DNA of 33,009 nt from positions 1 through 33,009 of the forward strand of contig JAHJLN010000289.1 in the NCBI GenBank assembly GCA_018821715.1. The letters are read 5' to 3'. Source of the DNA: Pseudomonadota bacterium (GTDB lineage: Bacteria; Desulfobacterota; Desulfobacteria; Desulfobacterales; Desulfobacteraceae). A model generated the notes under the pieces. That model was not told the DNA's origin. It saw only the letters and a list, made by a program, of their open reading frames with translations, and ran no database searches. Shown here one piece after another: positions 3,528-24,249 of the stretch. The stretch's first letter is position 1. Each line of letters begins with the position of its first letter. The position numbers were made by a program, and so were the translations under genes.

Positions 3528-3556
3528 TTGACAATTTTATTTGCTTGATTTAGTAT
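3528..3556 (+). promoter_or_regulatory. Sigma-70-type promoter of arsR
   Basis: A perfect -35 hexamer TTGACA (3528-3533) is followed by a 17-bp spacer and the -10 TAGTAT (3551-3556). Transcription would begin near 3563. That excludes the TTG at 3541 as start codon, because it falls in the spacer, and points to the ATG at 3586. The -10 box overlaps the left arm of the inverted repeat at 3554-3575, the geometry expected for autorepression. Confidence 0.75.
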
Positions 3557-3575
3557 TTAAGGAACAACTTAAATA
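3554..3575. promoter_or_regulatory. ArsR-type operator O1 (22-bp inverted repeat)
   Basis: TATTTAAG, six bases (GAACAA), then CTTAAATA: the two 8-base arms are exact reverse complements. The repeat covers the end of the -10 box and the predicted transcription start of arsR. ArsR/SmtB repressors bind AT-rich inverted repeats at such positions. A second site of the same design lies at 4018-4039. That ArsR is the bound protein is inferred. Confidence 0.65.
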
Positions 3576-3585
3576 TGGTGTAAAA

Positions 3586-4002
3586 ATGATACTTACTCAA
3601 GCAGAAATGTTCAAAGTACTTGGCGTCGACAATCGAATACGAATTATTGATCTTTTAAAAAAGAATGGGCCATTAGGGGTTAACGAGTTGTCTGAAACAC
3701 TTAAAATTTCTCCTTCCGCTGTTTCGCAGCATCTTAAGATCCTTCGGCATGCCGGTTTAGTGCGCAGTGAGCGTAAGGGATACTGGATACCCTACAAAAT
3801 AAACGAGGAGGCTTTAGAACAATGTCAGGATCTGCTTTCTAATGTCTGCTCCTGCGGATGCAAAGGAACCGGCAGGATTCGTGAAGGTGAGTTAGATGCA
3901 GCCGAAAACAAACTAACGCTTCTCAAAAACTGGGAAAAAGAATTGCAAAGAGAACTCCTTGAAGTGAGGTCTCGAATGGAGGAATTAACCGAAGAAGAAT
4001 AA
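3586..4002 (+). CDS. ArsR/SmtB-family winged-helix repressor with a C-terminal Cys cluster
   Basis: The protein is 138 residues from the ATG at 3586. A longer frame from TTG 3541 would begin inside the promoter. The winged helix lies at about residues 10-80, with the recognition helix in ISPSAVSQHLKILRHAGLV and a basic wing after it. After the winged helix comes a Cys cluster, C-S-C-G-C-K-G, at about residues 87-93, then a charged helical tail of some 45 residues that may be coiled coil. ArsR proteins dimerise and release DNA when metal, metalloid or another ligand binds. Cys placed after the wing is a plausible thiol or metal sensor, but not at the classical alpha-3 (CxC) position. It is followed by an acyl-CoA dehydrogenase homologue, not by arsenic genes. 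The ligand is unknown. Confidence 0.88.
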   Translation: MILTQAEMFKVLGVDNRIRIIDLLKKNGPLGVNELSETLKISPSAVSQHLKILRHAGLVRSERKGYWIPYKINEEALEQCQDLLSNVCSCGCKGTGRIREGELDAAENKLTLLKNWEKELQRELLEVRSRMEELTEEE

Positions 4003-4017
4003 TTTTTTTTGATTTAA

Positions 4018-4039
4018 TATTTCAGTATTTGCTTAAATA
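4018..4039. promoter_or_regulatory. ArsR-type operator O2 before the acyl-CoA dehydrogenase gene
   Basis: TATTTCAG, six bases (TATTTG), then CTTAAATA. This has the same arm length, spacer length and order as the site at 3554-3575, and 15 of 16 arm bases match it. It lies in the 59-nt gap between arsR and the dehydrogenase gene, ending 22 nt before the ATG. A TTGATT at 4009-4014 could serve as a weak -35, but no convincing -10 is seen, so the local promoter is uncertain. Confidence 0.6.
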
Positions 4040-4061
4040 ATTAACAACAAAGGAAATCAAA

Positions 4062-5213
4062 ATGAAAGAAAAAGGCAGGCACTACAATCAACAAGCCGAG
4101 ATCATTGGACTTACCAAGAAAATAGCAAAAGAACAGATTGTTCCTCAGGCATCGGAATGTGACCGAAAGGGAACCTTTCCCTGGGAGGCCATTCGCGCAA
4201 TAGGGGAAGTTGAATTACCCGCTTTAGTCATTTCCGAAAAAGAAGGCGGGATGGGTGAAGGAAGGGGGCTTTTTGCATCAGTTGTGCAGGAGCTTGCCAA
4301 AGTCTGTGCCTCGACTGCTCTCATATATACCTCCCACGTGGTCCTGGCAAAGGCAATCGAAATATCAGGCAGTGATGACTTGAAAAAAGAGTGGCTGCCG
4401 TATTTGTCAAGGTGTAAAGCGCTTGGGGCCGTCGCCGTCCATGAACAGACTGCCGGCAGTAATGCCGGTGCTATTTCCACCCGGGCAATAAAAGATGGTG
4501 ATGCTTATATTGTAAACGGTTCCAAATTCTTTATCACCTCTGGTGGCGAAGCAACTGCTTACCTGGTTCTGGTGAGGACAGACCCTGAAAAAGGTCTGGA
4601 CGGGATGAGTACGCTTCTGATTGTAAAAAACACACCAGGCCTTTCCTTTGGCCAGGCTGAAGAAAAAATGGGATTGAGAAGTACCGCTTCAAGAGAAATG
4701 TTTTTAAACGACTGCCGGGTTCCTGCAAAAAATCTTATTGGTGCTGAAGGTGAGGGGCTCAAGGTTATTGGCCAATCGCTCATTGGATGGGGATTTTATG
4801 GGGCTGCAGCCATTTCTTCAGGGATAGCAAAAGCCAGTTTGGACAAAGCGGTTAGACACGCGAGAGAAAGAACCATTGCAGGCCAACCCATTGGAGTTCA
4901 TCAAGGAGTTCAGTTCCTGATTTCAGACATGATTCTTGGATGTGAAACAATAGAGGCTTATCTGAATACCTGTGCCGCAGCAGCAGATGCCATCCCAAGC
5001 ACTATGGCCTTAAATGGATTTAAAGCAAAACTGTATGCATCTGAAGTGGCGATTGAGGTTGCCAACAAGGCGATACAGGTGATGGGCGGCCATGGCTACT
5101 GCCAGGATTACTCTGTTGAACGATTTTTCAGAGATGCCCGGGGTCTAACGCTCCATTTTAAAACATCGGAATGGCTTAAACAGGATATTGCCAAAGCTGC
5201 ACTAAAACTATGA
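4062..5213 (+). CDS. Acyl-CoA dehydrogenase superfamily flavoprotein lacking the usual catalytic Glu
   Basis: The 383 residues match the normal length of an acyl-CoA dehydrogenase. The helical N-terminal domain (1-120), beta domain (120-230) and C-terminal helical domain (230-383) are all present. Family signatures include FITSGG (157-162, flavin/substrate site), a REMFLNDCRVP block (211-221) and GGHGY (342-346). The usual C-terminal block reads Tyr-Glu-Gly-Thr-Ser-Glu, where the first Glu is the base that removes the alpha-proton. Here it reads His-Phe-Lys-Thr-Ser-Glu (365-370), placing Phe366 at the catalytic position. The alternative position used by isovaleryl- and long-chain enzymes aligns with Gly244. 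The protein probably binds FAD and a CoA thioester but may catalyse a different reaction. It follows arsR by 59 nt with an operator-like repeat between. The ATG has AAAGGA upstream. Confidence 0.9.
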   Translation: MKEKGRHYNQQAEIIGLTKKIAKEQIVPQASECDRKGTFPWEAIRAIGEVELPALVISEKEGGMGEGRGLFASVVQELAKVCASTALIYTSHVVLAKAIEISGSDDLKKEWLPYLSRCKALGAVAVHEQTAGSNAGAISTRAIKDGDAYIVNGSKFFITSGGEATAYLVLVRTDPEKGLDGMSTLLIVKNTPGLSFGQAEEKMGLRSTASREMFLNDCRVPAKNLIGAEGEGLKVIGQSLIGWGFYGAAAISSGIAKASLDKAVRHARERTIAGQPIGVHQGVQFLISDMILGCETIEAYLNTCAAAADAIPSTMALNGFKAKLYASEVAIEVANKAIQVMGGHGYCQDYSVERFFRDARGLTLHFKTSEWLKQDIAKAALKL

Positions 5214-5312
5214 CGTGGTCTTATTTTTACCCTGCGCTTTTTTGCCATGCCCGGAAATTAGCGATGATGCATGACAAATAGAGTCAATTCAACACAAAAG
5301 GAGGTGATATAT

Positions 5313-5444
5313 ATGGAAGCTGCTAAAAAGGAAAAAAAGAAAAAGGTTGAAAAAACCAAGCAACAGAAACCGGAAAAAAGAGCGGTAGAGGCCAATCTTG
5401 TTTGTGGTTGCGGTTGTATTTCTCCATTTCCAAGTAAAAAGTAG
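5313..5444 (+). CDS. 43-residue Lys-rich peptide with terminal CGCGC cluster
   Basis: A small open reading frame with a near-perfect Shine-Dalgarno (AGGAGGTGAT) 5 nt before the ATG. The first 28 residues are almost all Lys, Glu, Ala and Gln. The C-terminal part is hydrophobic, then Cys-Gly-Cys-Gly-Cys (31-35), then a short Pro/Ser/Lys tail. No signal peptide or membrane segment is present, so it is predicted cytoplasmic. The C-x-C-G-C pattern also occurs in the ArsR protein encoded upstream. It lies 99 nt after the dehydrogenase gene and is followed directly by a 15-bp perfect hairpin. I do not recognise the family. The Cys cluster could bind metal or be modified. That it is a real gene rests mainly on the ribosome-binding site and its position before the hairpin. 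Confidence 0.7.
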   Translation: MEAAKKEKKKKVEKTKQQKPEKRAVEANLVCGCGCISPFPSKK

Positions 5445-5504: not shown

Positions 5505-5891
5505 TCAGGCTGTTTTTATCTCAATCTGCCGGGGTTTGGCTGCCTCTGATTTTGGGAGATGAAGGAGCAATACCCCGTCTTTCAGTTCAGCCTCCACCCT
5601 TTCCACATCAATGGTCGGAGGAACGGAAAAATTTCTTACATATTCCACATTTCCAAATTCCTCCCACGTGGCCTTCCCCTGGGTTTTCAGTTTTCTTACC
5701 CCTGAAAGAGAGAGAGTTCCATTATCAATGTTAACACTGATATCCTGTTTTACCACACCCGGCATATCGGCATGGAGCAGGATTTCATCTTCATTTTCAA
5801 AGATATCTACAATTGGCGCCACTTCGTAGAGGGTGCCTGTTTTTTCAATGTTTTTTTCCGGCGCTTTTACGATGTCAGTTTTTTCGCTCAT
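5505..5891 (-). CDS. Hsp20/alpha-crystallin small heat-shock protein
   Basis: A 128-residue protein. A short N-terminal arm (about 1-25) precedes an alpha-crystallin domain (about 28-115). That domain holds the conserved block ending DGVLLLHLPKSE (the Gly-Val-Leu motif, 105-116). The C-terminal I-E-I anchor (122-124) is present. Small heat-shock proteins are ATP-independent holdases that keep unfolding proteins soluble as large oligomers. It lies 46 nt downstream of a second, distinct hsp20 gene in the same direction, so the two are probably cotranscribed. Paired Hsp20 proteins of different sequence are common in anaerobic Desulfobacterota and may form mixed oligomers; that is inference. Upstream GGAGG gives a good ribosome-binding site. 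Confidence 0.94.
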   Translation of the reverse strand: MSEKTDIVKAPEKNIEKTGTLYEVAPIVDIFENEDEILLHADMPGVVKQDISVNIDNGTLSLSGVRKLKTQGKATWEEFGNVEYVRNFSVPPTIDVERVEAELKDGVLLLHLPKSEAAKPRQIEIKTA

Positions 5892-5937
5892 GACAAACCT
5901 CCAGTATAAAAATTTGTTATGATTTATTCATTATTTT

Positions 5938-6378
5938 TCAGCCGATGGTGATTTTCTTGGGTTTTACAGCTTCTGCCTTTGGCAGTGTCAAATAAAGGAT
6001 ACCGTTTTTCAAAGTGGCCTCAACTTTGGTGGCATCCACATCTGTCGGCAATGTCAAACTTCTTGAAAAAGAATCAGCCCCTCTTTCGGTTTTATGGATT
6101 CTATACCCTTTTGGTGCATCGGAGCTGCGGGTACCTGAGATTTCAAGATAGTTGCCCTGGATGTTGACCTTGAGATCTTCTTTGGCAAGCCCTGGAACCT
6201 CGGCTCTGATTTCAAATCCTTCACCATCTTCATAAAGATTTGTTCTCGGCACGCTTCCCTGTATTGCCCACCTAAAACTGTCGGATCTGTCAAAATCACT
6301 GTACAGGTTGTCCAACCTGTTTCTCAGCAGGTTCATGGTCCCAAACAACCTGTCAATATCACTTAGCCTTGTAAACAT
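5938..6378 (-). CDS. Hsp20/alpha-crystallin small heat-shock protein
   Basis: A 146-residue protein. The aromatic N-terminal arm (1-40) carries the IDRLFG pattern often seen in class A bacterial Hsp20. An alpha-crystallin domain (about 45-135) includes AEVPGLAKEDLKV and the NGILYLTLPKAE block (Gly-Ile-Leu motif). The C-terminus ends with the I-T-I anchor. It is a cytoplasmic holdase, first gene of a two-gene hsp20 unit. The ATG at 6378 is preceded by AAAGGAGG. Its sequence differs clearly from the neighbouring Hsp20, so the pair is an old duplication or separate subfamilies rather than a recent copy. No CIRCE inverted repeat was seen in the 268-nt upstream region. Confidence 0.94.
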   Translation of the reverse strand: MFTRLSDIDRLFGTMNLLRNRLDNLYSDFDRSDSFRWAIQGSVPRTNLYEDGEGFEIRAEVPGLAKEDLKVNIQGNYLEISGTRSSDAPKGYRIHKTERGADSFSRSLTLPTDVDATKVEATLKNGILYLTLPKAEAVKPKKITIG

Positions 6379-23821: not shown

Positions 23822-24249
23822 ATGTCAACTCGCATTTTGGATATTGGTTATGACAGCACGAGTGGGTGGGACACCTGGAGGTAGAGCAGCATAGTTTGTG
23901 CGAAGCTCTGCACGATTATGTCGCCGGAATGATGGAGATGCACGCCAGGCAACCACGATTGCAACATATTCTGCTTGAGGAGACGCCACTGCCCGAGCGA
24001 GTTCACCAGGCATTACTTGAGGCCGAACAACATGCTGCCAAAACTGTAGCCGGTCTTATCCGTTTATATCCTGAAGTTCGATCAAACTGCCTCGATCATA
24101 CCTGTTTTGTCATCGTCCAGACAGTTGAGAGTTTAACCCACCGGTACGCAGCCCATCCCGATGATCAGTTCATCCCGCGGACTATATTTGTGGATGAAGT
24201 GGTCAAAATGATTATTGCTTACCTTAAATGCGATAGCTCCTCTTTATAA
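23822..24249 (+). pseudogene. tetR-family regulator remnant: DNA-binding region deleted, ligand domain kept
   Basis: An ATG at 23822 opens a short frame beginning Met-Ser-Thr-Arg-Ile-Leu-Asp, like a TetR N-terminus, but it ends at TAG after 20 codons. A second frame, from about 23866 (GTG) to 24249, encodes a good TetR C-terminal domain: a VAGMMEMHARQPRLQHILLE-type helix pair and a final DEVVKMIIAYL helix. Only some 45 nt separate the two, where an intact gene needs about 150 nt for the helix-turn-helix. The helix-turn-helix is therefore lost and the frames are shifted. The C-terminal part could be translated from GTG but has no good ribosome site. Without the DNA-binding region it cannot repress the divergent operon in the usual way. 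Confidence 0.7.

Follow-up and report, generated by a model that had tools for sequence, protein, structure and literature searches.

The arsR locus of the window (the whole stretch of 33,009 nucleotides that was analysed) looks like an undescribed metal- or sulfur-stress cassette of small size. Its near-constant elements are: an operator, arsR, a second operator and a small cysteine peptide. The best explanation, to which we assign a probability of roughly 0.6, is a small self-repressing switch for a thiophilic ligand. The features on which this reading rests are listed by position in the window.

3528 to 3556, plus strand: putative sigma-70 promoter of arsR, TTGACA-17-TAGTAT, 10/12 in a consensus scan.
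3554 to 3575, no strand assigned: operator 1, TATTTAAG-GAACAA-CTTAAATA, overlapping the -10 hexamer.
3586 to 4002, plus strand: arsR, 138 aa, a winged-helix repressor with a C88-S-C90-G-C92 motif towards the C-terminus and a long C-terminal helix.
4003 to 4010, plus strand: T8 tract that begins right behind the arsR stop and ends 7 bases before operator 2, a spacing kept in most of 67 rows.
4018 to 4039, no strand assigned: operator 2, TATTTCAG-TATTTG-CTTAAATA, overlapped by a weak promoter-like match (4014 to 4041).
4062 to 5213, plus strand: acad, encoding a flavoprotein of 383 aa with the acyl-CoA dehydrogenase (ACAD) fold, in which Lys367 replaces the catalytic Glu (Pfam, alignments and model).
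5297 to 5307, plus strand: strong Shine-Dalgarno sequence of the microprotein, AAAGGAGGTGA.
5313 to 5444, plus strand: lysine-rich CGCGC microprotein of 43 aa (codons 5313 to 5441 plus stop), absent from the sequence-only reading that preceded this analysis.

That reading had described two matching 22-bp sites, one of them on the -10 box before arsR. Both are confirmed as to position, arms of 8+8 bases, a spacer of 6 in each and agreement at 15/16 arm bases, and operator 1 does overlap the -10 hexamer TAGTAT (3551 to 3556). Operator 2 is followed by a third half-site, TTAA (4041 to 4044), and the extended form that includes it, TTMAGN6CTKAAN4TTAA, has operator 2 as its single match in the genome. 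Across the window's own genome (5,733,440 bases in 447 contigs), perfect matches to TATTTMAGN6CTKAAATA are limited to operators 1 and 2; there is no further place at one mismatch, and the next-ranked places carry two. At up to three mismatches, 317 matches are found versus 260 for the reversed control pattern. Taken together, the next-ranked places and the control count make a loose search (two to three mismatches) uninformative, whereas a strict search (zero or one mismatch) is specific. Restricted to the window, a loose search gives 3 matches, a number also reached in 3/100 shuffles. These window-only statistics are weak because loose matches are counted, and whole-genome and cross-genome tests were used instead.

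A core pattern, TTAAGTNATTGCTTAA, was derived from relatives and is not matched exactly by either site of the window. This core has 15 exact matches in 12/291 genomes, compared with 4 for the reversed control. Thirteen of the 15 lie at arsR of the window's family, damaged copies in genomes G003 and G005 included, and the other two (G054 and G220) lie inside unrelated coding sequence. The possibility, raised earlier, that the pattern might occur at random genome positions is therefore not borne out for strict matches, in the window's genome or in the relatives.

The operator pair is also retained beside related arsR genes. Close arsR orthologues occur in 11/96 other genomes (E <=4.6e-42, 53-93% identity), and the window and these 11 relatives all carry one site upstream of arsR and one just after its stop (12/12 loci, 11-16 of 16 arm bases); in 8/12, nothing else in the locus DNA scores as high. 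A wider set, which includes genomes of the 96-genome set and is for that reason not independent of it, comprises the best 80 of 97 relatives, with ArsR identities to the window of 49-93%. For the operator count, 79 loci were usable, window included (L135 was left out beforehand and L092 was dropped for its short upstream stretch). Sites of at least 12/16 are present upstream in 71, downstream in 66 and on both sides in 60, versus both sides in 0.38% of shuffles; as the loci are related, these are not 79 independent trials. At this threshold, the control stretches give 4/79 inside arsR and 0/70 at 900 bp away. Both sites reach at least 11/16 in 69/79 loci (7.42% of shuffles), with 10/79 falling below that value on at least one side, and at least 13/16 in 38/79 (0.03%).

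On these numbers, it is hardly credible that operator 2 is a chance look-alike. Such an explanation could draw on a pattern that is short and AT-rich and has common loose matches, but it is opposed by the conservation of the pair and the specificity of strict matches, and the 79-locus test refutes it unless the loci form one near-identical lineage, which ArsR identities as low as 49% do not suggest. The earlier argument that two independent chance matches are improbable is upheld, and the pair appears to be conserved and very unlikely to be a product of chance.

The two operators differ in their promoter context. A TTGACA-like element at matching distance appears in the 71-row upstream profile of arsR. 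At operator 2, there is no good -35/-10 pair, and neither profile nor promoter scan finds TTGACA on that side. Operator 2 is possibly a second repressed promoter and possibly a roadblock or attenuator. In the latter case, polymerase that started at the arsR promoter would be stopped by bound ArsR where it pauses on T-rich sequence, and no separate promoter would be repressed. We regard this as a tentative but serious alternative: the T tract is rigidly spaced just before operator 2 (T content 77-95% at -14 to -8 from it, 67 rows), TTGACA is lacking there and the promoter-like match is weak (9/12), and yet this match does overlap operator 2, and no terminator-like stem was found after arsR in the window. 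The T tract occupies the same place before operator 2 in other loci, also without a terminator stem.

ArsR belongs to the ArsR/SmtB superfamily. It scores 87.7 bits against NCBIfam NF033788 (cut-off 55) and 58.1 against PF01022 (cut-off 22), Foldseek matches it to SrnR, CzrA and SmtB, and its own promoter carries an inverted-repeat operator that is conserved and lies over the -10 box. The longest frame begins at 3541; the ATG at 3586 was chosen as the start because close orthologues start there. In the predicted structure (mean pLDDT 87, pTM 0.60), the CxCGC motif lies in a loop after helix 5, and the long C-terminal helix spans residues 109-137. The only cysteines are 80, 88, 90 and 92. Across 46 ArsR sequences, Cys 88 and Cys 90 are invariant and Cys 92 is kept in at least 90%; Cys 80 is replaced in some, for example in L102. 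Judged from its sequence, the cluster of three close thiolates would suit a thiophilic metal(loid). Comparison with the two metal sites defined in the accessible text of PMC8790569 finds neither the alpha3N cysteine nor the alpha5 site (DxHx10Hx2E) in ArsR, the helix 5 of which (74-85) contains no His. The sequence also stays below the TsoR equivalog (44.3 bits, cut-off 115) and the BigR equivalog (34.5 bits, cut-off 155).

The other near-constant coding element is the microprotein. Stretches similar to its ribosome site, of the form AGGAGGTGA, precede many of its counterparts. A rule combining a Shine-Dalgarno-like stretch with a cysteine cluster identifies the peptide in 73/81 loci, a count that cannot also prove the stretch, since the rule required it. 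Eight loci lack a peptide by this rule: L058, L059, L061, L062, L067, L075, L087 and L098. L061 does have a peptide with a weaker ribosome site, and L059 and L062 stop at contig ends. Overall, a CGCGC-type microprotein of 20-67 residues is present in 74/81 loci, undecidable in two and not found in five (L058, L067, L075, L087 and L098). L075 and L098 have neither a peptide nor a good operator 2, but the pairing is imperfect: in L067 and L087 operator 2 is kept and no peptide is found, and L130 and L134 have the peptide with a downstream place of only 8/16. Among fifteen microproteins of 33 codons, differing codons are synonymous in 775/2209 cases in frame versus 257/2320 and 230/2235 in the other frames. 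Judging by codon use, this is a clear coding signal and suggests that the microproteins are translated.

Two forms of the microprotein occur: a lysine-rich form, as in the window, and a form with a coiled-coil tail in 19 loci (class ii), often with more cysteines. The window peptide and six others have no Pfam or NCBIfam match above cut-off, and they do not qualify for a metallothionein family there. In L086, a DsrE-like gene after arsR is flanked by two nearly identical CGCGC peptides.

The class ii tail resembles the C-terminus of ArsR. An hhalign comparison gives a probability of 97.8 and a score of 60.1, above the maximum of 50.7 in 200 heptad-block shuffles. Scored separately, the coiled-coil part reaches 36.4 versus at most 28.6 in 100 shuffles, and the cysteine part reaches a probability of 27% over 6 columns; part of the 60.1 score is therefore generic coiled coil. 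The likeness is suggestive and provides a hypothesis only. If pursued, the sensor end of ArsR would have been copied into its target: the class ii microprotein, with its CGC cluster and coiled-coil tail, would be a detached sensor domain that takes ligand from the repressor or pairs with it (titration or hand-off), and the base-less ACAD-fold flavoprotein would process the captured metal(loid) or sulfur species. This would be a new kind of sensor-effector pair, and we consider it rather unlikely.

The protein encoded by acad has the domains and fold of an acyl-CoA dehydrogenase. Three domains are recognized (PF02771, PF02770 and PF00441), and the model (pLDDT 91) aligns with solved ACADs at TM 0.88-0.93 among the 50 rows listed. 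The catalytic Glu is found neither in an EGT motif nor at the isovaleryl-type position. At its place, HFKTSEW is present in 10/10 complete cassette members that are more than 60% identical, window included, and HFMTAE in the distant ACAD of L134. In L124 and L126, the ACAD lies upstream of arsR, is 35-37% identical and keeps YEGT. With the Glu missing, the name dehydrogenase, given to this protein earlier, is doubtful. Unlike in the known Glu-less ACADs, alignments place a Gly at what we take to be the alternative base position of isovaleryl-type enzymes. An ACAD fold with the Glu replaced is shared with 3-sulfinopropionyl-CoA desulfinase, which performs another reaction. Most ACADs conserve the Glu, and the long-chain, isovaleryl- and benzylmalonyl-CoA dehydrogenases have Gly or Ala instead, with Lys not named in the accessible part of that source (PMC11659651); the cassette protein resembles these three in fold and in the replaced Glu, and differs from them, as far as that text describes them, in having Lys.

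The ACAD-like gene is optional cargo, and most of the 80 loci show none. A full-length ACAD of the window type follows in 10/80 loci (L056, L058, L060, L063, L066, L069, L091, L116, L130 and L134), with the peptide preceding it in L091 and L134; the ACAD of L062 is cut by a contig end, and L057 and L064 contain remnants. In the window and in nine further loci, one of which is cut by a contig end, the ACAD gene comes immediately after arsR without an intervening peptide. Searching from the enzyme side (291 genomes, threshold E 1e-100, at most 6 candidates scored per genome) identifies a subfamily member in 7/291 genomes. Six lie directly beside arsR and the seventh is split by contig ends: in G144, the ACAD starts at base 4 of a contig and arsR is near the end of another. 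With 6/7 beside arsR, the link between the two genes is genuine, and in the 291 genomes searched the subfamily is confined to the cassette. The proposal of an ArsR regulon with a dehydrogenase therefore survives in part: the gene belongs to the cassette and does not define the regulon.

The same loci bear on a different role for ArsR, as a CoA-thioester-responsive regulator of fatty-acid or aromatic degradation that is built on an ArsR scaffold and acts chiefly on the dehydrogenase gene. This is quite improbable. In most of the 80 loci, sites and peptide are retained in the absence of an ACAD, and L057 and L064 keep ArsR, operator 1 and the peptide while their ACAD is a remnant. The direct succession of arsR and ACAD in the window and nine loci would fit such a regulator, as would the electron-transfer flavoprotein (ETF) alpha and beta genes found 2.6-4.4 kb downstream, on the other strand, in L044/L060 (same genome); besides this pair, however, inspection by eye of the genes listed around the 11 ACAD loci revealed none of beta-oxidation type, and the catalytic Glu is missing. 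A dedicated role of the ACAD gene in fatty-acid metabolism is unlikely.

Other loci carry different cargo. Twelve loci, which do not overlap with the ACAD loci, encode a CopD-type membrane protein downstream. The 12 proteins form one sequence cluster, of which L095 and L106 were checked against PF05425. The gene starts 85-100 bases after the peptide in 10/11 measured cases, with no operator-like site above 11/16 between. A methyltransferase, presumably reminiscent of arsenite methyltransferases, is encoded near L102, L105, L112 and L134, possibly as a matter of synteny; Pfam assigns general methyltransferase domains only. On an ArsR tree built from few columns, the ACAD and CopD labels are clustered, with 4 changes each versus a shuffled mean of 9.2, and a tree of so few columns fits either a single gain or several gains of this cargo. 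The tree's Myxococcota label for 'Deltaproteobacteria' records looks like a name-mapping effect.

Returning to the self-repressing switch, the proposed mechanism involves: repression by apo-ArsR at both operators; release upon ligand capture; and sequestration of the ligand by the microprotein. Apo-ArsR, presumably as a dimer, would occupy operator 1, where it covers the -10 box of the arsR promoter, as well as operator 2 between arsR and acad, and in this way keep arsR and the downstream acad and microprotein genes silent. Capture of a thiophilic ligand by the CxCGC cysteines just after helix 5 would make ArsR leave both sites. The main product would be the CGCGC microprotein, whose ribosome site is close to ideal; it probably binds the same ligand via the same kind of motif, and this sequestration would end induction. 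Having lost the usual catalytic base, the ACAD-fold protein probably catalyses some flavin chemistry that is not alpha,beta-dehydrogenation, or else plays a supporting part under the same stress.

As ligand, a metal(loid) is the most likely candidate (for example As(III), Sb(III), Cd, Pb, Hg or Cu(I)) and reactive sulfur comes second, although sequence cannot separate metal from sulfur. A metal link is favoured because of the CxCGC motif in ArsR, the CGCGC motif in the peptide and the CopD-type gene in 12 other loci; the earlier contrast with metal export does not exclude it.

SqrR and BigR are sulfur-sensing ArsR proteins, and a reactive-sulfur switch of their kind would have CxCGC sense polysulfide or persulfide and the CGCGC peptide act as a sulfane-sulfur carrier. 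The cassette would share with them the ArsR fold, cysteine-based sensing and sulfur-linked targets; it differs in an ArsR that falls below the BigR equivalog cut-off and in cysteines arranged as CxCGC. Many hosts are named as sulfate-reducer groups, a DsrE-like gene lies beside L086 and L087, and the ACAD-fold desulfinase provides a sulfur-related precedent. DsbD/thioredoxin and rhodanese-like genes occur near about eight loci (L102, L103, L105, L112, L115, L117, L122 and L129, assigned by clustering with one of each Pfam-checked), but these neighbours lie on the opposite strand, most of the loci concerned cluster with one another in the ArsR tree, and their recurrence near the cassette could be simple synteny. 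In our judgement, the three-cysteine geometry and the CopD cargo suit metals better, and a sulfur switch, possible as it is, is doubtful.

Cyanobacterial SmtB-SmtA and AzuR-NmtA, in which an ArsR/SmtB repressor controls a metallothionein (PMC8790569), offer a known parallel. As described in the available portion of that source, these systems and the cassette have in common: an ArsR/SmtB repressor; an inverted-repeat operator near the promoter; and a small cysteine-rich product as the main target. In contrast, the cassette peptide has a short CGCGC cluster and reaches no Pfam or NCBIfam cut-off, its sensor has CxCGC after helix 5 instead of an alpha3N or alpha5 site, two operators frame its arsR, and ACAD or CopD-type cargo is optional. 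The cassette would thus operate in the manner of SmtB-SmtA, but with a different sensor site, a different peptide and additional cargo. The hgcAB-linked ArsR of Pseudodesulfovibrio mercurii ND132 (PMC10349881 and PMC7438021, in their accessible parts) is likewise an ArsR-type regulator in Desulfobacterota with a non-export target. A cassette of ArsR, CGCGC peptide and ACAD has no description in the literature searched, as far as its accessible text extends, most subscription journals being outside its scope.

Should the switch reading hold, anaerobes would have a recurrent stress switch that has escaped naming because its key product, of 20-67 residues, lies below the family cut-offs of the two libraries scanned. 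For anoxic environments, it would supply a sensor part with two operators already in place, and it would link a cysteine microprotein to its regulator across many lineages. It would also single out an ACAD-fold subfamily whose members are probably not dehydrogenases and whose chemistry might be worked out starting from the inducer.

Going by record titles, hosts of the best 80 of 97 relatives belong mostly to Desulfobacterota/Deltaproteobacteria groups. A few are assigned to Planctomycetota (including Scalindua and Brocadiaceae), Nitrospinota, Nitrospirae, KSB1, Deferribacteres, Poribacteria, WOR-3, Stahlbacteria, Desantisbacteria, Methylomirabilota and Actinobacteria; as nearly all hosts are metagenome bins, single odd placements may be binning errors. 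Flanking genes appear to differ between cassettes in the subset of loci compared by eye. Plasmid records contain no ArsR match at E 1e-20, and among viral contigs 28 stretches fit a pattern and none encodes a relative. Carriage by plasmid or phage is thus not supported.

Two second or lone cassettes show partial arsR genes. In L175 (G005:C20 near 59916), the arsR frame is continuous but lacks the recognition-helix region; the part coding for the sensor tail is preserved, as are the operator and the CGCGC peptide. In L177 (G003:C908 near 28404), arsR is damaged and the DNA-binding part alone is left. Elsewhere in the window, an open frame at 23866 to 24249 matches only the C-terminal domain of TetR regulators (PF17918), with no DNA-binding part matched. 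At 5505 to 6378, two tandem Hsp20-family genes (PF00011) on the minus strand converge on the cassette.
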